A stretch of DNA of 64,000 bases, taken from Terriglobales bacterium (GTDB taxonomy: Bacteria; Acidobacteriota; Terriglobia; Terriglobales; Acidobacteriaceae). The DNA is taken from positions 1-64,000 of the forward strand of contig JAOAPE010000003.1 in the NCBI GenBank assembly GCA_025462725.1, read 5' to 3'. Shown here one piece after another: positions 48,149-61,280 of this stretch; position 1 is the first letter of the stretch; every line of letters starts with the position of its first letter. The notes below the pieces were generated by a model. It worked only from the letters and a program-made list of their open reading frames with translations. It was not told the origin of the DNA and searched no databases. The position numbers and the translations under genes are program-made.

Positions 48149-50518
48149 TTGAGCGAGCGACCGCGAGGGAGTGTGTCCGGCCGGGCCCAAGGTGAAGAGG
48201 TGCGCGATGGCGTTGGTGTGAATCGCGCGGAAAATCTCGTTGCTATGGCGCTGGAGTTAGGCAATTCGCTCAGCTTGCCGGACCTTGTCCATACGGTTGC
48301 GACTCGCGCCGCCAGCATGTTTGGCGCGCAGGGAGTTGCGGTAGCGTTGGCGCACGGCGAAGTCGTCGAGACAGTTGCATTGCAAGATTCGCGACTGCCC
48401 GCGGCGCGAAATCTGCAGTCGAAGCTGACGAGCATCCTGACATCCTTCGCAGAGCACTCGCATGAACCGGTTCAGTCGTCCACTGGCGCAGAGTTGCTGG
48501 GCGAATTGCATTCGGACTTGAAATGGGAAAAAGTAACCGTCGCACGGTTGACGGGAACGGATGGCGAGCTACTCGGACTCATATGCCTGGCCGACGCGGA
48601 GCCTCCGATCACGGTGGATGATCTGCGGCTTCTGCAAGCTTTCGTGCGACACGCATCGATGTCGCTGGAGAACTCGCGGCTGTTCTCGCGGATCACGCAA
48701 GCGAGCAAACAATGGGCGGAAATTTTCGATTCGCTGACTGACTTCATCGTGGTGCATGACGATGAGCATCGGGTGATGCGGGTCAATCGCACGTTGGCCG
48801 AATTTATTGGCGCGCGTCCGGCTGAGTTGATCGGCATCCACATGCGCGATCTACTGGCGAAAGGCGACAGTGTGGGCATGCAGCCTTGTCCTTTCTGCTT
48901 GCCTGACATGAAGCAAGATGAATTCATTCATCCAGTACTTGAACGTGTGTATCTGCTGTCCACTTCGCGGGTGCACGGCGCGCTCGATGAGGGATTGCAG
49001 ACTGTCCACGTATTGAAGGACATCACGGACAGACGCGAGGCGGAGCGGCGATATCAGGAGTTGTTCGATAACGTGCAGGAAGGCGTCTTCTTTTCGTCGC
49101 CCGAAGGCCGGTTCATCGAAGTCAACAATGCGCTGGTCTCCATGCTCGGATACGCGAGCAAACAAGAACTGTTGAGCATTCATATTCCCACGCAGTTATA
49201 TGTATCTCCGCAACACAGGTTGCAGGGACATGAGTTTTTGGATCCGATCGGAGAAGTGCGCCACTATGACGCTTCCTTCCGAAAAAAAGATGGCACCCAG
49301 ATACACGCGCTTGTGAATGCATTCGCGGTCACTGACGCGGACGGCAAAGTGGTGCAGTACCGGGGAATGATCCTCGATGTCACCAGCACCAAGAACTTCC
49401 AAACCCAGCTGCAGCGCGAGCGCGACTTCAATATACAAATCCTGAACAACACACAGAGCATGATCCTGGTGGCCGACACAGCCGGATTGATCAGCTATGC
49501 GAATCGGCGATGCTATGAGGCTGGTGGATACGGCAAACGCGATCTAGTCGGACATAAATTGGCGGAACTAGTCTCAATCGCAGATCGCGCAACGTGGGAT
49601 TCCGCATTTGATGTGGCGCTGCTGGGCGATCCGGTGGACAATCTGGAGATCCAATTGATCCGTGGTGGAGGTTCGACAGGAACTTTCTCAGTGAATATGA
49701 GTCCGATGCGCGGTGACCATGATGTGGTCAACAGCGTGGTCGTCGTGATGACGGACATCACTGAAGTTGCGAATATCCAAGCTAAGCTGATGAACACGGA
49801 AAAGCTCGCAGCGGTTGGACAGTTGGTATCCGGTGTAGCGCATGAGGTGAACAACCCCCTGACGGCGATCATGGGATTTGCTGACTTGATGTTGGAAAAT
49901 CCGAAGTTACCGGATGCGGTGCATCAAGACCTGCGCGTGATCATGCAAGAGGCGCAACGGACAAAAGAGATTGTCCAGAATCTTCTGAGTTTTGCGAGGC
50001 AGATGCCTCCGCAACGCGAGCCTGTAGATGTCAATGCGGTGCTTCGCCGAACTATTGCTTTGCGCTCCTATGATTTCTCGAGTCATGGAGTTGATGTTGT
50101 TGAGAGATTGGAAGAGCCGCTGCCACACATTATCGGCGACGGCCACCAATTGCAGCAGGTATTCCTCAATATCCTGAATAACGCCTATGACGCGGTGCGG
50201 GAGACAGAGCGTCGCGGGCGGATCGAGATCAGCACCATCCGCGAGAACGATTGGGTGCATGTGATGTTCAAAGACAACGGTCCCGGTATCGCGAATGCTG
50301 AACGCATTTTTGATCCGTTCTTCACAACAAAAGATGTAGGAAAGGGAACTGGATTGGGCTTGAGTATTTGTTATGGGATCGTGCACGAGCACGCAGGCGA
50401 GATCACATGTGAGAACAATCCGGGAAGCGCAGGAGCAACTTTCATGGTGAAGATACCGATGATCCCGGAGCCGTACCGAAAGCCGTCGCGGACGAGAACC
50501 CACAGGAGAGCCAGATGA
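48149..50518 (+). CDS. NtrB-like GAF-PAS3 sensor histidine kinase
   Basis: A 789-residue soluble kinase with no membrane helix. In order: a GAF domain (about 25-170), a PAS domain with IFDSLTDFIVVHDDEHRVMRV and a CPFC motif near residue 250, two more PAS domains (about 295-420 and 430-540), a HisKA helix pair with phosphoacceptor His565 (VAHEVNNPLTAIMGFADLM), and an HATPase domain (N-box NILNNAYDAV; GIANAERIFDPFFTTK; GKGTGLGLSICYGI). The start is TTG at 48149 with AAGGAAGC upstream. Its stop overlaps the start of the receiver gene. It is the likely partner of the sigma54 activator two genes on. Confidence 0.92.
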   Translation: MSERPRGSVSGRAQGEEVRDGVGVNRAENLVAMALELGNSLSLPDLVHTVATRAASMFGAQGVAVALAHGEVVETVALQDSRLPAARNLQSKLTSILTSFAEHSHEPVQSSTGAELLGELHSDLKWEKVTVARLTGTDGELLGLICLADAEPPITVDDLRLLQAFVRHASMSLENSRLFSRITQASKQWAEIFDSLTDFIVVHDDEHRVMRVNRTLAEFIGARPAELIGIHMRDLLAKGDSVGMQPCPFCLPDMKQDEFIHPVLERVYLLSTSRVHGALDEGLQTVHVLKDITDRREAERRYQELFDNVQEGVFFSSPEGRFIEVNNALVSMLGYASKQELLSIHIPTQLYVSPQHRLQGHEFLDPIGEVRHYDASFRKKDGTQIHALVNAFAVTDADGKVVQYRGMILDVTSTKNFQTQLQRERDFNIQILNNTQSMILVADTAGLISYANRRCYEAGGYGKRDLVGHKLAELVSIADRATWDSAFDVALLGDPVDNLEIQLIRGGGSTGTFSVNMSPMRGDHDVVNSVVVVMTDITEVANIQAKLMNTEKLAAVGQLVSGVAHEVNNPLTAIMGFADLMLENPKLPDAVHQDLRVIMQEAQRTKEIVQNLLSFARQMPPQREPVDVNAVLRRTIALRSYDFSSHGVDVVERLEEPLPHIIGDGHQLQQVFLNILNNAYDAVRETERRGRIEISTIRENDWVHVMFKDNGPGIANAERIFDPFFTTKDVGKGTGLGLSICYGIVHEHAGEITCENNPGSAGATFMVKIPMIPEPYRKPSRTRTHRRAR

Positions 50519-50904
50519 GCGCGACAGCTTTCGCCACATTGCCACTATTAGTCATAGAGGACGAGGTATCAGTTCAGTCTTTCTTGCGGGCGGCGCTCGA
50601 AAGGAATGGATTCAAGTTGGAGATTGCTTCGTCGGGTGCAGACGGATTGGAACTGCTGAAGCGGAACAGCTACAGCTTTGTGATATCGGACATGAGAACG
50701 CCGGGCGGGGTGAACGGCGCGGATGTACACGCGTGGATTTGTGCGAACAAGCCGGAACTGGCCGCCCGAATGCTGTTTATTACCGGCGATATTGTGAATG
50801 AAGAGACAACGAAGATTCTGCAGACCACAGGAATCCCCTGCATCGAGAAACCATTTCGGGTGCAAGAACTGATCAACGCGATCAATAAGGTCGTGAGCGA
50901 ATGA
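50515..50904 (+). CDS. Single-domain receiver between the kinase and the sigma54 activator
   Basis: A 129-residue receiver with no output domain. Glu15-Asp16 form the acidic pocket and Asp59 (VISDMRTPGG) the phosphoacceptor; Lys near residue 111 (IEKPFRVQEL) is present. It overlaps the kinase gene by four bases and the activator gene by four bases, so the three are co-translated. It may be an additional phosphoryl sink or intermediate in a relay from the kinase to the activator; that is inference. Confidence 0.9.
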   Translation: MSATAFATLPLLVIEDEVSVQSFLRAALERNGFKLEIASSGADGLELLKRNSYSFVISDMRTPGGVNGADVHAWICANKPELAARMLFITGDIVNEETTKILQTTGIPCIEKPFRVQELINAINKVVSE

Positions 50905-52286
50905 GTATGGATGACCTTCGCATACGCTTCCTGATAGTGGATGACGACAAGAACATTCGTCGTCTCTGCATGACAATTGGTGTGTCGCTGGGATTTCAAT
51001 GCTCTGAGGCGGAGAGTGCGGAGGCCGCGCTGAATGATATCGATATCAATTCGCCAGACATTATCCTTGCCGATTTGATGATGCCGAACATGACGGGCTT
51101 AGATTTCCTGGAGCAAGTAAAGAAGGTACTGCCGAGAACCGAAGTCGCCATCATGACCGGCCATGGGAGCATCGAGACGGCTGTCCGCGCCATGCGGATG
51201 GGCGCGTACGATTTCATCACCAAGCCATTTCGCATTGATGAGTTGAAGTTGCTCTTGCAGCGGATGGAAGAGAAAGTTCGCCTCGTGGCAGAGAACCAAT
51301 TCCTGCGTGAGCGCGTCAGTGCGGACATGGAACTGAACGGCATCATCGGTTCATCCGCGAAGATCCAAGACGTGCTGCGGATGATCGCGCGCCTAAAGGA
51401 CACTCGCACTCCAGTGTTGATCACAGGCGAAAGCGGCACAGGAAAAGAGCTGGTAGCGCGCGCCATTCATTACCGCGGAGCATTGGCAAAGCGTCCGTTT
51501 GTAGCTGTGGACTGCGGTTCGCTGGTACCAACGCTAATCGAAAGTGAGTTATTCGGCTACGAAAAAGGCGCATTCACAGGAGCGCTTCGATCCAAAGAAG
51601 GATTATTCCAGGCGGCGAATGGCGGAACGATATTCCTCGACGAAATCGGCGAGTTGCCGCTGGAGATGCAAGCAAAACTGTTGCGCGTGCTGCAAGAAAA
51701 AGAAGTGCGTCCTGTGGGTCGCAATGACAGAGTCAAAGTCGATGTCCGCGTCATCGCGGCAACGAACCGCGATTTAGAAACGGCGTATCGCGATGGTGAT
51801 TTCCGCAAAGATCTGTTCTTCCGTTTGAACGTAGTGACGATTCACATGCCGTCGTTGCGCGAGAGAAAGTCTGATATCCCGACGCTGGTGCATTGGTTTC
51901 TGGATAAATACGCGCCGAAACAGATGGTGCAGGTTTCCAGCGACGCAATGAAGTGCATGCTCAATTACGAGTGGCCGGGAAATGTCCGCGAGTTGGAAAA
52001 TTGTATTGAGCGCGCGGTCGCATTGGGAACGGACAATCTGCTGGAAGTCTCTGATCTGCCGCCGGCCATGCATGCGGCAAGTGAGCCCGTCGTTGTACAG
52101 GGAAGCAATCTTTCCGGTAACGACCTGGAAGAGTTGGAAAAAGAGACGATCCAGCGCGTATTCGAGCAGGTCCGCGGCGACAAGGTGCTCGCCGGAAAAA
52201 TGTTGGGAATCAGCCGGGCAACACTGTATCGAAAACTCAAGCGCTATCACATCGGCGAGAGAAGCATGTCGGCCACCGCAAGCTAG
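50901..52286 (+). CDS. NtrC-family sigma54-dependent activator
   Basis: A 461-residue enhancer-binding protein: receiver (residues 7-120, phosphoacceptor Asp58 in ILADLMMPN), AAA+ domain (about 145-375) with Walker A GESGTGKE at 176-183, the sigma54-contacting loop GAFTGA at 223-228 and Walker B GTIFLDEIGELP, and a Fis-type helix-turn-helix near the end (DKVLAGKMLGISRATLYRKLKRY). All catalytic features are intact. Given two sigma54 promoters and a shared palindrome on both sides of it, it is the obvious candidate activator of both chemosensory operons and possibly of its own. Confidence 0.95.
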   Translation: MSMDDLRIRFLIVDDDKNIRRLCMTIGVSLGFQCSEAESAEAALNDIDINSPDIILADLMMPNMTGLDFLEQVKKVLPRTEVAIMTGHGSIETAVRAMRMGAYDFITKPFRIDELKLLLQRMEEKVRLVAENQFLRERVSADMELNGIIGSSAKIQDVLRMIARLKDTRTPVLITGESGTGKELVARAIHYRGALAKRPFVAVDCGSLVPTLIESELFGYEKGAFTGALRSKEGLFQAANGGTIFLDEIGELPLEMQAKLLRVLQEKEVRPVGRNDRVKVDVRVIAATNRDLETAYRDGDFRKDLFFRLNVVTIHMPSLRERKSDIPTLVHWFLDKYAPKQMVQVSSDAMKCMLNYEWPGNVRELENCIERAVALGTDNLLEVSDLPPAMHAASEPVVVQGSNLSGNDLEELEKETIQRVFEQVRGDKVLAGKMLGISRATLYRKLKRYHIGERSMSATAS

Positions 52287-52320
52287 TCTCACCTCGAAAT
52301 TGCTGTTCTTGTTGAGACTA
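52284..52320 (+). promoter_or_regulatory. Spaced inverted repeat TAGTCTCA / TGAGACTA
   Basis: TAGTCTCA (52284-52291) and TGAGACTA (52313-52320) are perfect 8-base arms around a 21-base spacer, beginning at the activator's stop codon. They share the GTCTCA/TGAGAC core with the neighbouring 17-base palindrome. Confidence 0.65.
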
Positions 52321-52322
52321 CC

Positions 52323-52339
52323 CGTCTCACCCTGAGACG
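52323..52339 (+). promoter_or_regulatory. Perfect palindrome CGTCTCA-CCC-TGAGACG, likely activator operator
   Basis: Seven-base arms around three bases, centred about 94 bases upstream of the inferred start point of the rightward operon, the usual position of NtrC-type enhancer sites. The same motif, less perfect, is at 48012-48028 upstream of the other sigma54 promoter. Confidence 0.8.
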
Positions 52340-52398
52340 AAAGCCTGAATCCACTCTGGCATGGTACTTAGAATCAACAACTTATTCGCGTTCCGTTT

Positions 52399-52414
52399 TG
52401 GCGTCTCTCTTGCA
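52399..52414 (+). promoter_or_regulatory. Sigma54 (-24/-12) promoter of the rightward chemosensory operon
   Basis: TGGCGTCTCTCTTGCA has the GG-N10-GC spacing and the TTGCA -12 element of sigma54 promoters, with a weaker central CAC. The expected start point is near 52425, about 70 bases before the first gene. Confidence 0.8.
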
Positions 52415-52493
52415 TTACCCTCTCTGACTCTATTCGTGTGCTTTGGTCGAGCCACCCTTCGCAAGTTGGAAAATGGAGTTCGGAGAAATTGAA

Positions 52494-53948
52494 ATGAGCA
52501 CGGCCGTAGTTAATTTGGCGGAAGTAGCACAGAAATGGCGAAATGCTCGCCGGATCTATCCGGTCTATTCGGCATTAGATCAGCAATTTGAAATTGGCGT
52601 AGGGCCATGCCGCGAGTTGGAAAGCCCGATTAATCGGTCCGAACCGGAAGTGCTGCAACGGATCGATGAATGGTTCGACAAGATGGACAACCAAGTCCAA
52701 GTCTTCCAGCTTCGCCAATTACTGCAGACTACTCACCTCGCAACTGAGGAAAACCTACACGCTCTGCTGGCGCGCCATTTAGGAAAGCCTATCCGCCCGG
52801 TTTCTGTCCGCGACAAAGTTGATTACCTGCTCGTCCAATATTTCGCTTATTGCGCTCCACACGATGCCCACAATACTCACGTCGAGATAGACCATGTAGC
52901 GGAAGTATTGCATCCGGTGCTGGGAGACGTTTCACCTCTGGTACCTGCGTTCTGTGAAAACCTGGATCCGATACTCAAAGAACTTGATGAATGCTCGAGC
53001 CTCCGCGACCTGCTGCAGCGCAAGATCGTAGAGAAGGCACGCAGCGTAAAGGACGAAGCGGGAGAGAAGTACTTCATGCCTTCCGTGCTCGTCGCGTTCA
53101 CTAGATTTAATTTTTCGCTGCGGCTCGGATTCTTCCGGCTGATGCACGCCGATTTGCATGCCATTCGATTCGCCCTCCATCAAATGGAAGCCCGCGGACA
53201 ATCGGAATGCGATTGCTCTTCCGCTGGAATGAACGAGCAAGAGCCGCTGAGCAACATTCGGGAGATTTGCCACAACTGGAAGAAGCCGTTTCGCGCTTCG
53301 TACACGGGAGGCAACAGCCTTTCGCACTTGGTGGAGATCCGCAGTGCGGTGGAAGCTGCAATGGCAAAGCCATTGCCGGTAGTGGAACCTGAGCCGTTGC
53401 CGGTTGTGGAAGAGCCAGTCGCCGAAGTTGCGGTTGAGGAAGCGCCCGCCGGAGAATTCGCAGAGCCTTCGACGATTGAAGGACCTGTTGCAGTCGAACC
53501 GAAGCCAGTAATTACGCCTCTTGCCTCGAAAATTTCCGCAGTCTCTGCTATTCCGGATATCGAGTCCTGTTTGGAGCAGATCGCAGAACAGCTCATTACC
53601 ACTTCAACGAAGTCGGCCTCGGTTTCTACAGTGGTGATGGGTGACACGAAAATACTGCTCGCTTCTTGGGAAGTGGCTGCCTTTGTACGCGGGGGAGACG
53701 ATGTCTCTGATGCATTGCAACGCGCAGTCGCGGCACGAGTCATGGTGGGATTAGCGGTGGAGCGCAAGAAAAAGGGCGAATCCACGGACCTTTCTGCTGT
53801 GATCGCACTGGCGCATGTGGAGGCTTCACAGATTCAAGAGCGAATCGCTGAGGCGAAAGACAAGAAAAATATTGACGATGCAGTAAATCTTGCAGCAACC
53901 GCCAAGCGTCTTTTGGGCGTGCTGGACGAAGCGGAAAAGGCCAAATAG
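52494..53948 (+). CDS. Unrecognised 484-residue protein, first gene of the rightward operon
   Basis: About 484 residues from ATG 52494, which has GGAGA upstream; an earlier ATG at 52443 is open but lacks a ribosome-binding site. No known domain is recognised. The N-terminal 285 residues form a mixed alpha/beta part (SPINRSEPEVLQRIDEWFDK, then RDKVDYLLVQYFAYCAPHDAHNTHVEIDH), then a Pro/Glu/Val-rich linker of about 55 residues with repeated VVEPEPLPVVEEP, and a C-terminal helical part (residues 345-484) ending KRLLGVLDEAEKAK. No signal peptide or membrane segment. It is the first gene behind the sigma54 promoter, so it is probably central to this pathway. Confidence 0.85.
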   Translation: MSTAVVNLAEVAQKWRNARRIYPVYSALDQQFEIGVGPCRELESPINRSEPEVLQRIDEWFDKMDNQVQVFQLRQLLQTTHLATEENLHALLARHLGKPIRPVSVRDKVDYLLVQYFAYCAPHDAHNTHVEIDHVAEVLHPVLGDVSPLVPAFCENLDPILKELDECSSLRDLLQRKIVEKARSVKDEAGEKYFMPSVLVAFTRFNFSLRLGFFRLMHADLHAIRFALHQMEARGQSECDCSSAGMNEQEPLSNIREICHNWKKPFRASYTGGNSLSHLVEIRSAVEAAMAKPLPVVEPEPLPVVEEPVAEVAVEEAPAGEFAEPSTIEGPVAVEPKPVITPLASKISAVSAIPDIESCLEQIAEQLITTSTKSASVSTVVMGDTKILLASWEVAAFVRGGDDVSDALQRAVAARVMVGLAVERKKKGESTDLSAVIALAHVEASQIQERIAEAKDKKNIDDAVNLAATAKRLLGVLDEAEKAK

Positions 53949-53972
53949 GAATTGATCGCCGGAGGCTTAGCA

Positions 53973-54653
53973 GTGAACGGACAGAATGTACTTATCGTCT
54001 CGGACAGCGCTCAATGCACGCGTGATCTGGTGGCGCACTGGCAGATGGAACGCATGGTCCCCACCTTCACCATGCGCGACAGTGTGACTTGGAGCGGAGG
54101 CGCTTCAGGAGCCAGCGACCTGGCAATCGTTATCGGATTGCCCGAACACCGGGTGGCAGCGATATTGCGGTCATTGGAATCGCTAGCCGTCCCCACGATC
54201 TATGTGGTCGATAAGCTTGCGTTGCATCAATTGCGGTCGGAGTTTGGAAGAGTGATGTCAGTCCGCAAACATGATGATTGGCTGGATGCAGTGGTAACTC
54301 TAGGCAGCGAAGTGTTGCATAGGGTTGACGCGATCTCGCGTGCCCGTCGGGCGGAAATCTCCGCGACCGGCAACAGCAATCAGGCCGCACTAGGGAAGTA
54401 CATGCTGGATGCGCGGCACGGTTTCAACAATGCACTCACTTCCGTTTTGGGCAATGCGGAATTGTTGCTGTTGGAGACTGAAGAGCTGCCGGAACGGATG
54501 CGGGAACAGGTTGACACCATCCACAACATGGCTTTGCGATTACACGAAATGATGCAAAGATTTTCATCTTTGGAAGCCGAAATGTACTTTGCCGAGAGGG
54601 AATCTCAGCAAGAAAACAAGGGTGCGGCTCAGGCTTACCTATCAGGTACCTAA
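53973..54653 (+). CDS. Degenerate receiver joined to a DHp (HisKA-like) domain, no ATPase domain
   Basis: About 226 residues from GTG 53973, which has GGAGG upstream (TTG 53952 is open but weaker). Residues 1-120 resemble a receiver fold (NVLIVSDSAQ in place of the DD pocket, then DLAIVIG and VPTIYVVD) but lack the phosphoacceptor, so a pseudo-receiver. Residues 135-205 form a DHp-like helical hairpin with the HisKA-type His149 in DARHGFNNALTSVLGNAE and the conserved spacing to LRLHEMMQRFSSL. There is no HATPase domain, so it cannot autophosphorylate. It may accept phosphate from another protein and pass it on, or regulate by binding. Confidence 0.8.
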   Translation: MNGQNVLIVSDSAQCTRDLVAHWQMERMVPTFTMRDSVTWSGGASGASDLAIVIGLPEHRVAAILRSLESLAVPTIYVVDKLALHQLRSEFGRVMSVRKHDDWLDAVVTLGSEVLHRVDAISRARRAEISATGNSNQAALGKYMLDARHGFNNALTSVLGNAELLLLETEELPERMREQVDTIHNMALRLHEMMQRFSSLEAEMYFAERESQQENKGAAQAYLSGT

Positions 54654-54677
54654 GCCTTTTATTAGGCATTACTTAGG
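54649..54677 (+). other. Possible stem-loop at the end of the DHp protein gene
   Basis: CCTAA (54649-54653) and TTAGG (54673-54677) can pair with an inner GCC/GGC match around a TTTATT loop, overlapping the stop codon. It is imperfect and may be an attenuator or nothing. Confidence 0.35.
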
Positions 54678-54770
54678 TTAACTGGGTGGTAAGCTTTATT
54701 CCCGACGCGACATTCATGTGGAAGACTTAACACCCGGAACCGGAAACGAACAGAAAACCAGCGTAATCGC

Positions 54771-55130
54771 ATGACAAAGATCCTGATTTGCGACGATTCC
54801 ATCGCCGAGGTGCGGCTGATCCAAGCTGTTCTGGATAAAGCCGGTTATCGGTCCGTGGTGACGAACGATCCAACGGCGATCGAACGCACGATAGATGCGG
54901 AGCGTCCGAATTTGATCCTTCTCGATGTGGTTATGCCACAGCGGAATGGATACCAGGTATGCCGCGACCTGAAAGGTAACACCGAGTACAACCGGATTCC
55001 GGTAGTAGTGGTGAGTTCAAAAGATCAAGATAGCGACAAGTTTTGGGCAAGAGAACAAGGCGCGGATGGATATGTGGTGAAGCCCTTCACGCCGGAACAA
55101 TTGCTGGGCACGATCAAGAGGTTTGTCTAG
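54771..55130 (+). CDS. CheY/PilH-like single receiver
   Basis: A 119-residue receiver with Asp8-Asp9 (ICDDS), phosphoacceptor Asp52 (LILLDVVMPQRNG) and Lys in VVKPFTP. All residues needed for phosphorylation are present. It lies 117 bases after the DHp protein gene and 75 bases before the cheW gene on the same strand. The RNGYQVCRDLK segment resembles PilG/PilH-type regulators of type IV pili. The ATG has no clear ribosome-binding site. Confidence 0.9.
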   Translation: MTKILICDDSIAEVRLIQAVLDKAGYRSVVTNDPTAIERTIDAERPNLILLDVVMPQRNGYQVCRDLKGNTEYNRIPVVVVSSKDQDSDKFWAREQGADGYVVKPFTPEQLLGTIKRFV

Positions 55131-55205
55131 GGGTGAGCGCGGAGCGAGCGCTGATGCGCGCGAGCAAAGCGCCAGGGTGAAGCGGCTTTGCCGCGGAACC
55201 CTGTC

Positions 55206-55760
55206 ATGAGAAGAAAAATGCCGGGAGACATTCCACAACTCGAAGCAGTGTCTTCAGAGGCTGCTGCCGCAAGCGCCGCTGAAAACGCTGGCGTTCGTAT
55301 GGGCGAATCTGGAAACCGACTGCCGGAAGTGCAGTACTGCATTTTTCGCGCCGGCCGCGAGCGGTTCTGCCTGCAAGTGCTCGATATCGAGGAAGTAGTG
55401 GAGTGGCCGTCCGTAACGAAACTGCCGCTGGCTCCGAGCTTTTTGATGGGAGTATTCAATCTGCGGGGCGGAATTGTTCCCGTGATCGATATCGCGTTCA
55501 CTGAAGGACGTCGTGCGGACCTTCCGCCAAAGCATTGCGTTGTGGCGATGATGAAGGGCGCAGATGGTAACGATGATTTGCGGTTGGGAATTGCAGCAGA
55601 TGAGGTCATTGGGACATACACCACATCAGAGCCGCTGTTGATCGATGAAGCGCCGCGAGATGTACCACATTGCTGCGGAATGTTGCGCCACGATGACCGG
55701 CTGGCATTGGCATTGAGTTTGAAACGGCTCACGGAAGCATTTCCGGTGCCGGTGATTTAA
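55206..55760 (+). CDS. cheW: CheW-like coupling protein (rightward operon)
   Basis: About 184 residues. A CheW fold spans residues 45-180 ([40 protein letters not shown]), after a 35-residue Ala/Glu-rich N-terminal extension. The start is uncertain: TTG 55188, ATG 55206 and ATG 55218 are all open; 55206 is chosen as the first ATG. Conserved residues for CheA and receptor binding are in the loop around [12 protein letters not shown]. It couples the following receptor to the CheA hybrid. Confidence 0.88.
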
Positions 55761-57246: not shown

Positions 57247-58125
57247 ATGATAGAGAAGCAGGCCACAGGCGCGATTGTTAGCGAACATGAACTCTCAGAG
57301 ATGCGCTCCTTGTTGGAGCAACGCTCTGGGATTTTGTTCGATGTGTCGCGTGAGAGATTTTTTTCCGGACGCGTGCGCGAGCACATGTCCGAAAAGAAGA
57401 TGGCGCATGGGTCCGAGCTGTTGCGGACAATCCGCAGTTCGAATGTCGAATATGACAAATTTCTAGAAAGGCTGCTGACGCAAGAGACGTCGTTCAACCG
57501 GTATCCCGCGATCTTCCGTGCGTTGGAAAAGAAAGTCCTTCCAGAGATGCACATGAAGAAATTCTGGGAGAATCCGCGGGCACTGCGGATATGGAGTGCG
57601 GGGTGTTCGTCCGGCGAGGAACCGTACACGATCGCGATTGCGATCGCGGACACGATTGAATCGTCAGAGGCGTGGAACATACAGATACTGGCGACGGACA
57701 TCAGCAAGCAGGCGTTGGATTTTGCGGAGCGCGGGGTTTATCCGCGAAGGGAATTGGAGACGCTGAAGCCGCACCACCTGACGAGTTATTTCACGCAAGA
57801 GGGAAATGATTTCAAGGTGCGTCCGAAGTTGCGGAACATGGTGACGTTCGCTCCTCTGAATCTTGCGCAGGCTGTTTACATGGGAAAGTTTGACTGCATC
57901 TTCTGCATGAACGTGTTGATTTATTTTTCAGAAGAGCGCAGGGCGGGATTGATCCAAAGGTTCTTCGATTATCTGGAGCCGGGTGGATATTTGTTTTTGG
58001 GTCATGCGGAGTCAGTGGCAAAGGCAGGAGTGAATTTCGAGCCGATCGTCGTTGGTGATTCATTGATCTACCAAAAGCCCGCGGGAAATAAGAAATCCGC
58101 TGCAATGGGGCAGGAGAAGCGTTGA
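57247..58125 (+). CDS. cheR: Chemotaxis methyltransferase CheR (rightward operon)
   Basis: A 292-residue CheR. The SAM-binding core has LRIWSAGCSSGEEPYTIAIA near residue 115 and ILATDISKQ, and the FDCIFCMNVLIYFS motif near residue 215. The N-terminal domain is normal. It is the second cheR in the window and is only distantly similar to that at 44018-44923. It is 21 bases after the receptor gene, and its stop overlaps the start of the cheA gene. Confidence 0.95.
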   Translation: MIEKQATGAIVSEHELSEMRSLLEQRSGILFDVSRERFFSGRVREHMSEKKMAHGSELLRTIRSSNVEYDKFLERLLTQETSFNRYPAIFRALEKKVLPEMHMKKFWENPRALRIWSAGCSSGEEPYTIAIAIADTIESSEAWNIQILATDISKQALDFAERGVYPRRELETLKPHHLTSYFTQEGNDFKVRPKLRNMVTFAPLNLAQAVYMGKFDCIFCMNVLIYFSEERRAGLIQRFFDYLEPGGYLFLGHAESVAKAGVNFEPIVVGDSLIYQKPAGNKKSAAMGQEKR

Positions 58126-61100
58126 GCACGCCTGGTCAGGAATTCGTAGAGGTCTTCCTCGCGGAAGCGTCAGAGCACCTGCAGTTCCTGCGGGAGTACT
58201 CCGGCATTCTCATTGATCCGTATCCCATGCCTGAAGATGTGGAGCGTCTTTATATATCGGCGCACACCTTGGCTGGGACATCCGCCTCGTATGGGTATCC
58301 GCTATTCTCTGAAGTCTCCAGCAAGCTCGCACACATTTTTCAGTACGCGATGAACGCCACGATCGGACCGGAAGCTTCGGGTCCGCTGGTCGAGTTCATC
58401 TCTGAAGGCGTGGCGGTTCTTGAGTCTGACCTGATCATGATCAGCACCAACAATGTTGAGGCTGATGAAGAGATCAATTCGTTCAAGATCAAATATCCGT
58501 TTGCGTTTCAGGCGCCCGCGCCGCCGGTGGAAGAGCCGGAGGTTGCGCCGATCAGCTACGTCGAGCATCAGCCTGAGCATCATTTCGGCCATGACCTGAA
58601 TCCAGAGCCAGCGCAGCAGGAAACGCCTGCGCCTGTTCCGGCGCGCACTGCGCCCGTATTTCATTTCGAGCCGCTGGAGCCAGATGCGGAGATTCCAGCA
58701 GAGATACTCGAGTTCTTCGTTCCTGAAGCGGAAGAGCACTTGCAGATCGTGCAGGATTGTTTGCTGGCGCTTGAGGCGAATCCGAATCCGGAAGACATCA
58801 ACCGTCTGTTCCGCGCAATGCACACCGTTAAGGGAAGCGCGGCGCAGGTTGGATTGCAGCGGATTGCGCGTGTCGCCCACCGTGCAGAAGACCTGGTTGG
58901 TCGGCTGCGAGATGGGCTGCTGCATCCGAGCGCCGAGATCGTAGACATCTGCCTGGAGTCAGTGGATGCGTTAAAGAAATTCCTCTACAACCAGTGGGCG
59001 GACGAACAGACGATGCAATCGGCGGTGAAGTCGCTGATGACTCGCATCGCGCGATTGGCGCCAGAAGAGATTGAGGGAGAAGAGGCACCTGTTGCGGTTC
59101 TTCCCGAAGTGCATGTAGTGGAAGCCGCGGTTGCATCGGCTGAAGTGGCTGATACGCCGGTTGCAACAGAGATCGAGGTTGCGCATCCGGAGACGGACTT
59201 CGTTGCGCGGATGGCGGCTTCAGCGGAAGCGAAAGACGAAGTTGAAGGCGGGGGAGTTGCCAAACGCGACATCACTGCCGTAGCGCAGTCGAAATCGGTG
59301 CGCATCGCGCTCGAGCGGCTTGACCGCATGATGAACGCGGTAGGCGAGCTGGTCATCAATCGAACGCGGATGCTGGGCAGACTAGCGGAACTTGAACGCC
59401 TTGCGGATGTGCTCAATTTCTCTAAAGGCCGCATGGCCGACAAGGTCACTGAATTCCAGGAAAAATACGAGTTCAGCCGGCTCACATCGCAATCACAGCA
59501 GCCGCAGTATCCGTCACAGTCATACATGGGCGGTGGAGAATTTCCATTCCGGGGCGGGTTCTCAAGCTACTCCGGCGGATACGATGCCTCGCTCGCAGAA
59601 TTCAGCGAACTGGAGATGGATCGCTATGACGACTTCAGCATTCTCTCGCGGTCGCTGACGGAAATCTCCGCGGACATTACGGAAGTGCTTACGCAACTCG
59701 ATGGATTTGTACGTCGTGTAGATTCCGACATCGATGAATTCACTAAGCTGGCGCATCGCTTGCAGGATGAGATCACTCAGGCACGCATGGTGCCGATCGG
59801 AAATCTGTATACGCGGTTGTCGCGCACGGTTCGCGACGCTGCCAAGGCTGCGAACAAGCAAGTGGAGTTGACGCTGGCTGGCGCGGAAACGGAACTCGAT
59901 AACAACATCATTCAGCAGATTTCAGATCCATTGATCCATTTGGTTCGCAACTCGGTGGCGCACGGACTCGAGCGGCACGATGAGCGATACCAGACAGGTA
60001 AGAGTGATCACGGCAATGTTGCTGTCCGCGCATACCATCGCGGCAATCACATCTTTATTGAAGTAGAAGACGACGGGCGCGGCATTGATTACGAGAAGGT
60101 GAAGCAGACAGCGATCGACGCGGGTTTGGTCAGTGCTGAGGATGCCAATTCGCTCGCCGAGCGTGACCTGCTCGAATTTCTTTTCCATCCCGGATTCTCC
60201 ACTGCACCGCGCAAGACGGAACTCGCGGGACGCGGTGTCGGACTCGATGTAGTAAGGGCAAATCTTTCGTCGCTGAACGGCGAGATCGAGATTGAGACCT
60301 CGAAGGGGCATGGAACACGTTTCACGCTGAAGGTTCCGCTGACGTTGATCATCTCGCAGGCATTGTTCATTCGCTGTGGAAAGAGCACGTTTGCAATGCC
60401 GCTGTCGTTCGTCGAAGAAATTCGGCGTTTGAAAGAGACGGATATCGAAGAAGTCGGCGGAAAGCTGCTGACGAAGGTCAGAGACGTTGTCACCGAAATC
60501 GTGCGGTTGGATACGCAGCTTGGGCTTGAGCCTGTTGAACCGGTGAACGGTTACTACAGGATGGTCATCGCCAATGTTGCGGGACGGCAAGTGGGCATCG
60601 TTGTTGAAGAAGTCCTGCGCAAGGATGAGATCGTGATCAAGAGTCTTGGCGAATATCTGCGCAACGTGAAGATGTTCCCGGGTTCCACAATCGCGCCGGA
60701 CGGCAGTTTAATCCTTCTTATTGATGTGAACCGGTTGGTAGTTGGCGAATCCATCGAGCATCGTCCGCTAATGACAAGTGGAATGGCCGCGCGGATTTTC
60801 GCACCGGGTGCGGTAGCTGTCGCGACAGGCGCAATCCCTGTTGCTGCAATCGACATTGTGGAAGCAGAAAAAGTGATCGTCCTAGCAGACGATTCGATCA
60901 GCGTGCGCAAGTTCGTCGGACGCATGCTTGAGAAAGCTGGATATCGCGTGAAGCTGGCCTCTGACGGACTCGAGGCGCTTGAGATCGCCACGCAGATTAA
61001 GTGCGACCTCGTCGTCACAGATTTGGAAATGCCACGCACAAACGGATACGAGTTGATCGCGCACTTGCGGCAGAATCCGCAAACAAGAAATATTCCTGTG

Positions 61101-61280
61101 ATGGTGGTGACATCACGCGCCGGAGCCAAACATCGCGATCGCGCCATGAAAGAAGGCGCGGCCGCGTTCATGACCAAACCGGTGCAAGACGACCAATTTG
61201 TGGCCGCAGTCGCGGAGTTGATCGGGCACGGTTCAGGACAGAAGACGATTCAGGTAGATGCTGCGCATGTTGGGCGGTAA
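58122..61280 (+). CDS. cheA: Two-Hpt CheA hybrid kinase with a C-terminal receiver
   Basis: A 1052-residue CheA of the hybrid class. The first Hpt-like domain has His48 but Ala51 in place of the usual Lys (AHTLAGTSASYGY); a Pro/Glu-rich linker follows; the second Hpt is canonical with His234 (MHTVKGSAAQVGL). Next are a long linker, dimerisation helices, the HATPase domain (N-box HLVRNSVAHGLE; DDGRGID; GRGVGLDVVRANLSSLNGE), a CheW-like domain to about residue 880, and a receiver with phosphoacceptor Asp967 (VVTDLEMPRTNGYE). The start is TTG at 58122, overlapping cheR. This layout resembles FrzE or the ChpA/PilL-type kinases of pilus pathways. Confidence 0.95.
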   Translation: MSTPGQEFVEVFLAEASEHLQFLREYSGILIDPYPMPEDVERLYISAHTLAGTSASYGYPLFSEVSSKLAHIFQYAMNATIGPEASGPLVEFISEGVAVLESDLIMISTNNVEADEEINSFKIKYPFAFQAPAPPVEEPEVAPISYVEHQPEHHFGHDLNPEPAQQETPAPVPARTAPVFHFEPLEPDAEIPAEILEFFVPEAEEHLQIVQDCLLALEANPNPEDINRLFRAMHTVKGSAAQVGLQRIARVAHRAEDLVGRLRDGLLHPSAEIVDICLESVDALKKFLYNQWADEQTMQSAVKSLMTRIARLAPEEIEGEEAPVAVLPEVHVVEAAVASAEVADTPVATEIEVAHPETDFVARMAASAEAKDEVEGGGVAKRDITAVAQSKSVRIALERLDRMMNAVGELVINRTRMLGRLAELERLADVLNFSKGRMADKVTEFQEKYEFSRLTSQSQQPQYPSQSYMGGGEFPFRGGFSSYSGGYDASLAEFSELEMDRYDDFSILSRSLTEISADITEVLTQLDGFVRRVDSDIDEFTKLAHRLQDEITQARMVPIGNLYTRLSRTVRDAAKAANKQVELTLAGAETELDNNIIQQISDPLIHLVRNSVAHGLERHDERYQTGKSDHGNVAVRAYHRGNHIFIEVEDDGRGIDYEKVKQTAIDAGLVSAEDANSLAERDLLEFLFHPGFSTAPRKTELAGRGVGLDVVRANLSSLNGEIEIETSKGHGTRFTLKVPLTLIISQALFIRCGKSTFAMPLSFVEEIRRLKETDIEEVGGKLLTKVRDVVTEIVRLDTQLGLEPVEPVNGYYRMVIANVAGRQVGIVVEEVLRKDEIVIKSLGEYLRNVKMFPGSTIAPDGSLILLIDVNRLVVGESIEHRPLMTSGMAARIFAPGAVAVATGAIPVAAIDIVEAEKVIVLADDSISVRKFVGRMLEKAGYRVKLASDGLEALEIATQIKCDLVVTDLEMPRTNGYELIAHLRQNPQTRNIPVMVVTSRAGAKHRDRAMKEGAAAFMTKPVQDDQFVAAVAELIGHGSGQKTIQVDAAHVGR

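Follow-up and report, generated by a model that had tools for sequence, protein, structure and literature searches.

The window that we analyzed, a 64,000-nucleotide stretch of the Terriglobales contig JAOAPE010000003.1, displays a plus-strand run of genes that begins with a histidine kinase containing GAF, PAS, HisKA and HATPase domains (48149-50518) and continues with a single-domain receiver, RR50515 (50515-50904; read from the sequence and an alignment, without a Pfam scan), and an NtrC-type response regulator combining receiver, sigma-54 AAA+ and Fis HTH domains (50901-52286). The kinase and the NtrC-type regulator were assigned by Pfam, alignment and locus comparison. They are followed by ORF501 (52443-53948), by the 226 aa protein studied here, P1 (53973-54653), and by a second single-domain receiver, RR54771 (54771-55130; Pfam and alignment), whose phosphoacceptor Asp is intact. 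ORF501 is mostly helical in a confident structural model (pLDDT 86.3, with low-confidence stretches at residues 1-14 and 328-367). It exceeds the cut-off of no Pfam family and matches nothing in NCBIfam, and a fold search of the PDB found no counterpart (best E 0.36). P1 starts at a GTG codon with GGAGG at 53961-53965 and the stop codon of ORF501 24 bp before it, and neither a sigma-70 promoter-like site nor a plus-strand terminator-like site was found in 52200-55300.

We recovered 129 relatives with a profile (A1) from GTDB contigs and used the best 80, whose titles name Acidobacteriota or taxa inside it; 78 of these and the window protein form a 79-row alignment (A2), with L124 and L126 omitted for their frames of <200 aa at contig starts. 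Pfam, this alignment and an AlphaFold2 model (monomer, built with the 79 rows; mean pLDDT 85.8, pTM 0.61) agree on a pseudo-receiver joined to a HisKA/DHp hairpin devoid of a catalytic ATPase (CA) domain. The model has a receiver-like alpha/beta domain at approximately residues 1-118, the last helix of which continues into a two-helix hairpin (103-146/148-167 and 174-224). HisKA (PF00512; residues 146-198, E 2.3e-7, 31.2 bits against a cut-off of 26.9) is the only family above cut-off in P1, Pfam detects no HATPase/CA domain in it or in any of the 79 members (0/79), and the protein ends after the second hairpin helix, with only 22 residues past the hairpin core. These results support the anatomy given in the first-pass annotation, namely a kinase-less DHp hairpin, with a His at residue 149 (codon 54417-54419), behind a degenerate receiver module.

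The receiver identity of the N-terminal part (residues 1-118; 53973-54326), recognized from the model, fold matches and alignment columns, is predicted from its fold and is barely detectable by sequence. A fold search with the P1 model, which probes chiefly residues 2-135, retrieves solved receivers at Z of about 14 (HupR first, with Z 14.3 over 130 residues and rmsd 2.3; the FrzS pseudo-receiver at 14.1) and also a few unrelated proteins at Z 13-14, while plain Foldseek places the pseudo-receiver protein AmiR on top, with two flavodoxins within its seven matches at E<=0.001. By sequence, Response_reg has no Pfam match in P1 at E<=1 and none among the family members (0/79), and hhalign returns a probability of 13% (E 0.002). 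Position 54, the phosphoacceptor site, is Gly in 74/79 rows of A2 and Asp among none of the letters listed, which bears out the earlier description of a receiver without a phosphoacceptor. The accompanying description of its acidic pocket as SDS in place of DD is not typical, even within the P1 family, most of whose members retain the beta-1 acidic pair (D11 in 75/79; D or E12 in 70/79).

Distribution and gene neighborhood of the P1 family

At E<=1e-27, P1 has a match in 39 of the 100 genomes searched, its own included (by eye, 37 from the window's taxonomic family and two from a second one), and in 38 of these 39 the open frame runs to 226 aa or more. Its own genome has a single copy, the six other matches (E 2.7e-5 to 0.064) sitting in frames of 558-1214 aa. 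Across 396 genomes of the phylum, full-length matches are found in five, all from the window's taxonomic family, with a sixth match inside an 823-aa frame; these phylum-wide searches scored at most seven candidates per genome and members may be missed. Eight weak matches with frames of 190-263 aa were also present among the 100 genomes, and five of these (L027-L030, L058) were inspected. No relative was recovered by a single-protein search of genome contigs or from plasmid records, phmmer of P1 against the PDB gave no meaningful match, and the P1 profile against the PDB retrieved at best a designed protein (2e-5), with RetS at a meaningless E of 0.92; among the titles listed by our literature searches, which covered few subscription journals, none deals with the family. 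As judged from its relatives, P1 is a conserved Acidobacteriota family. A broken or truncated kinase is ruled out, since its relatives have the same plan, a start codon aligns in 33/38 of them and selection is purifying (see below). In another Acidobacteriota family, we observed tiny stand-alone HisKA proteins of 134 and 103 aa (L146 1465-1869, minus strand; L148 1420-1731, plus strand) with an intact H-box (VRHEINNPLTG) and no two-component gene evident within the 3 kb seen; L152 gave a third match.

Conserved gene-neighborhoods link P1 to the genes on its 5′ side. Among the 56 loci with at least 9.5 kb of upstream flank, the NtrC gene (>=55% identity) is present in 51, and RR50515 and the kinase (>=45%) are each found in 49. 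In 72/75 loci, ORF501 is no more than 400 bp away on the 5′ side of P1. Downstream, where 52 loci have flanks of 5.5 kb or more, CheA is found in 20 and RR54771 in 19 of them, no CheA ortholog being seen in the other 32. Given these counts, P1 is tied more closely to the upstream block of kinase, receiver, NtrC and ORF501 genes than to the che genes, and we reject a role in which it would serve exclusively RR54771 or the hybrid CheA (58122-61280). RR54771 nevertheless lies downstream in all 13 rows of A2 that are without His149. The first-pass annotation had drawn attention to P1 lying beside receivers and a two-Hpt CheA hybrid; Pfam confirms the two Hpt stretches, but the CheA link is inconstant. 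By blast, 27 of the 74 loci with at least 1 kb downstream have RR54771 and 31 have a CheR-like gene within 500 bp, as if a che operon had decayed around P1 in many loci; in L067 (10704-11633) and L079 (10758-11891), a CheR-like gene directly 3′ of P1 is unaccompanied by any other che gene in the ORFs read.

Counted by eye, ORF501 itself is present at E<=1e-40 in 37/100 genomes, 34 of which have P1 and one of which (G009) has P1 cut by a contig end, while two are without P1; conversely, five P1-bearing genomes are without such an ORF501. P1 is likewise missing from two loci (L139 in G053 and L140 in G086) that display the kinase, receiver, NtrC, ORF501, RR54771, CheW, MCP, CheR and CheA genes in the same order. 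In G086, a distant P1-like protein (L027) is encoded at another site, adjoining another kinase and NtrC; in G053, the 100-genome search found no P1, its matches being only in frames of >1100 aa. These P1-less loci rule out an obligatory relay step from kinase to NtrC, and because such intact loci exist P1 probably acts as an accessory modulator, this being likelier than a required step. Distant proteins of the same plan also neighbor NtrC genes, either directly after them (L029, L030) or beside a kinase followed by NtrC (L027, L028). All four have an intact H-box (RH[DE]LNNPL) with the acidic residue retained at H+1 (positions being numbered from the H-box His), suggesting that the ancestor may have been phosphorylatable. 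In G049 (L058 6831-8842), another distant P1-like protein is flanked on one side by a che operon and on the other by RR50515 with a short stretch matching NtrC over 43 aa, an arrangement that loss of most of the NtrC gene would leave.

Conservation of the hairpin and changes of His149

The DHp hairpin (residues 138-204; 54384-54584) is the most conserved part of P1, with a mean column entropy of 0.82 bits against 1.87 bits in the receiver part. In a scan with five Pfam families, 75/79 members match HisKA at E<=0.01, and one with a Pro at position 149 (L069) scores 13.9, under the cut-off. Ten positions are invariant in all 79 rows of A2 (N152, L155, T156, L159, G160, N161, L164, R196, F197 and E203). 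The linked kinase, too, frequently has T at H+7 and G at H+11, which leaves N161 alone as distinctive for P1, its position being Phe in 54/55 linked kinases. Asn153 at H+4 (codon 54429-54431) is Asn in 76/79, including all 13 rows of A2 without the His, and Asp in three (L072, L130, L135), whereas H+5 is Ala in 74/79. At H+1, only one member of the 79 has an acidic residue (Ser 33, Gly 19, Asn 14, Thr 11, Asp 1, Ala 1). With neither a CA domain nor an acid at H+1, P1 is by its build incapable of autophosphorylation.

The His itself is variable: position 149 is His in 66/79 rows, Pro in 12 and Asn in one (L112), with Ser in one additional genome (L056). When L053, L055 and L056 are added to A2, the resulting 82-row tree requires three changes of His149, the 12 Pro rows lying on one side of one branch (100/96) as one event. 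The rows are not independent, 12/13 losses coming from this one clade, and the 13/79 losses consequently count as two events, or three with L056. By comparison, a 2025 survey gives the His as absent from 722 of 76,471 HisKA domains, or 0.9% (PMC12632262). Within the Pro clade, pN/pS is 0.18 in the hairpin (34 pairs) against 0.37 in the receiver part and 0.66 in the tail; hairpin values fall in the range 0.18-0.25, and these ratios are rough, as pS is close to saturation for many pairs. Such ratios indicate that the Pro clade remains under purifying selection, hairpin included, and suggest that His149 is dispensable for whatever keeps the family conserved. The view that P1 is a decaying, functionless kinase remnant could appeal to its two degenerate domains and to its absence from some otherwise intact loci, but is rendered highly improbable by the low hairpin entropy and pN/pS and by the near-universal full-length frames in the 39 genomes that carry it.

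These changes bear most directly on a phosphotransfer function of the Spo0B/ChpT type, which the first-pass annotation had proposed (as a Spo0B- or ShpA-like protein) and had itself tied to a His conserved in orthologs. In such a scheme, His149 would take phosphate from one receiver and hand it to a second, for instance that of NtrC. The majority of members do have the His, the linked single-domain receiver and NtrC effector resemble a kinase-Spo0F-Spo0B-Spo0A-like chain, and PhyT, first taken for a phosphatase, can relay according to one report (PMC5898713). Nevertheless, the non-conservation of His149 weakens this reading: the residue was changed three times with constraint kept, and the partners retain their counted catalytic residues irrespective of it (kinase His in 55/55, counted in the H-box only; RR50515 Asp in 54/54; RR54771 Asp in 29/29; NtrC phosphoacceptor Asp in 54 of the 55 loci with a letter there, 8 of the 63 loci having a gap). 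Together with the loci that are without P1, the 32/52 without CheA and the want of a CA-like domain, this leaves phosphotransfer unsupported as the general function of the family and, on the whole, unlikely, although His-bearing members, including the one in this window, may engage in it. We also set aside a split kinase that would phosphorylate the hairpin in trans, a mechanism for which the His would be needed as well.

Predicted role as a response-regulator docking protein

As P1 has been kept by evolution even where His149 is lost, we posit that it probably tunes the neighboring sensor system through a partner that it binds or dephosphorylates, and not by passing phosphate. In our leading proposal, put forward tentatively and at a little under an even chance, P1 docks response regulators as a stand-alone polypeptide, its most probable activity being that of a phosphatase acting on the linked system. 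The regulator-binding face of the hairpin, rather than a phospho-histidine, would do the work. We infer that P1, as a dimer, could strip phosphate from either the NtrC-type activator or the receiver RR50515, with Asn153 positioning the water for dephosphorylation and the pseudo-receiver gating or localizing the activity.

The changes of His149 in three lineages, the constraint on the hairpin of the Pro clade, the retention of Asn at H+4 and the loss of the H+1 acid argue for the phosphatase reading, as do the upstream NtrC gene in most loci, the proximity of L027-L030 to NtrC and the kinase and receiver residues kept regardless of His149. A precedent is found in the Myxococcus kinase CrdS (PMC3510030): E at H+1 is needed for kinase activity only and N at H+4 for phosphatase activity only (lost on replacement by Ala), the E372G variant is phosphatase-competent, most phosphatase activity survives a change of the His, and the half-life of CrdA~P, the target and also a sigma-54 regulator, is 2.6 min with CrdS H371A, 0.7 with the wild type and 53.5 without enzyme. 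According to the same source, EnvZ and NtrB need no more than their DHp domains for phosphatase activity, which the CA domain raises greatly (PMC3510030), and a review presents PtpB of Clostridioides difficile as a protein of phosphatase type whose His is not required (PMC11210211).

Several observations count against the phosphatase reading. Three members have Asp at H+4, while CrdS N375D lacks significant phosphatase activity, and the prevalent Ala at H+5 is set against the loss of much of that activity in CrdS P376A (both in PMC3510030). The linked kinase commonly shares the H+7 T and the H+11 G, and L027-L030 retain the H+1 acid. Moreover, the His is described as contributing to HisKA phosphatase chemistry (PMC7005713, in its discussion of that chemistry) and, in what is reported of PleC, as required for phosphatase activity; the data of the 2025 survey, in the part concerned, do not favor phosphatase as a general role of His-less HisKA proteins (PMC12632262).

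The Ala at H+5 and the three Asp rows at H+4, in speaking against catalysis, bring in a reader of phosphorylation akin to DivL, which we consider possible if rather doubtful: the hairpin would bind the phosphorylated regulator with its phosphate unchanged, and would signal to the linked kinase or ORF501, or shield or sequester the regulator. DivL, with a natural Tyr for His, binds DivK~P via its docking interface and stabilizes it, without kinase or phosphatase activity in the account given (PMC4211667). The change of the His amid invariant neighboring hairpin residues and the nearly constant adjacency of ORF501 fit such a function; however, binding alone does not explain the strong retention of Asn at H+4, and P1 is without the CA and PAS parts of DivL. 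Quite unlikely, in our estimation, is a RetS-like function, wherein the P1 hairpin would heterodimerize with that of the linked histidine kinase to poison or redirect it. The two hairpins do belong to the same Pfam family and the kinase is linked in most loci, but they differ consistently from each other (Leu against Tyr at H-6, Leu against Arg at H+47 and, with Phe in the kinase, Asn at H+12 in P1). Stated so as to cover both enzymatic and binding forms of the docking proposal, we give roughly even chances to P1 combining two catalytically dead two-component domains into a free-standing phosphatase or phospho-reader for the linked NtrC-type regulator, in which case evolution's own His-to-Pro experiment would separate docking from phosphotransfer.

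Comparison with known incomplete kinases and docking proteins

The build of P1 places it in a known class. Like the proteins classified in P2CS as HisKA without HATPase or as possible incomplete histidine kinases, some of which have a REC domain, it is a HisKA hairpin without an ATPase; those described in the census in question come from archaea, keep the His and have sensor domains, whereas P1 has a pseudo-receiver and has lost the H+1 acid and, in three lineages, the His (PMC5847659). The same census raised phosphatase activity as a possibility for HisKA-only proteins (PMC5847659). LvrB of Leptospira (PDB 8vc9) is, among the 50 matches listed, the sole one to span the P1 hairpin too (model 3-225, Z 13.8, 214 residues), and the rmsd of 18.3 means that its two domains cannot be overlaid on those of P1 as a single rigid unit. 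As read from NCBIfam match positions, LvrB resembles P1 in having a REC followed directly by the kinase core, but it keeps the CA part, and the PDB search gives no sequence match between the two.

The phosphatase halves of EnvZ, NtrB and CrdS have the same Pfam hairpin with Asn or Thr at H+4, and an NtrC-type regulator near NtrB and CrdS; unlike these, P1 is a separate polypeptide incapable of kinase activity, with no H+1 acid and with Ala at H+5. DivL of Caulobacter resembles P1 in that its phospho-His is naturally replaced and the regulator still docks, but it has PAS and CA domains and P1 has none. Spo0B and ChpT, like P1, are dimerization hairpins outside a working kinase that act with receivers. 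Both have a conserved His and a C-terminal CA-like domain, neither of which is a constant feature of P1. ShkA, like P1, unites a pseudo-receiver and HisKA in one protein. It is a hybrid kinase in which, according to the survey's treatment of it, the pseudo-receiver blocks autophosphorylation (PMC12632262).

Against this background, P1 belongs by its build to the known incomplete-histidine-kinase class, whose functions are putative, and what appears new is a family with repeated loss of the His. It offers a natural test case for the role of HisKA hairpins without an ATPase: within one largely syntenic family, the His is missing in 13/79 members through two events, with a third in a further genome, and since the partners look intact around His-bearing and His-less members alike, these natural forms are directly comparable.
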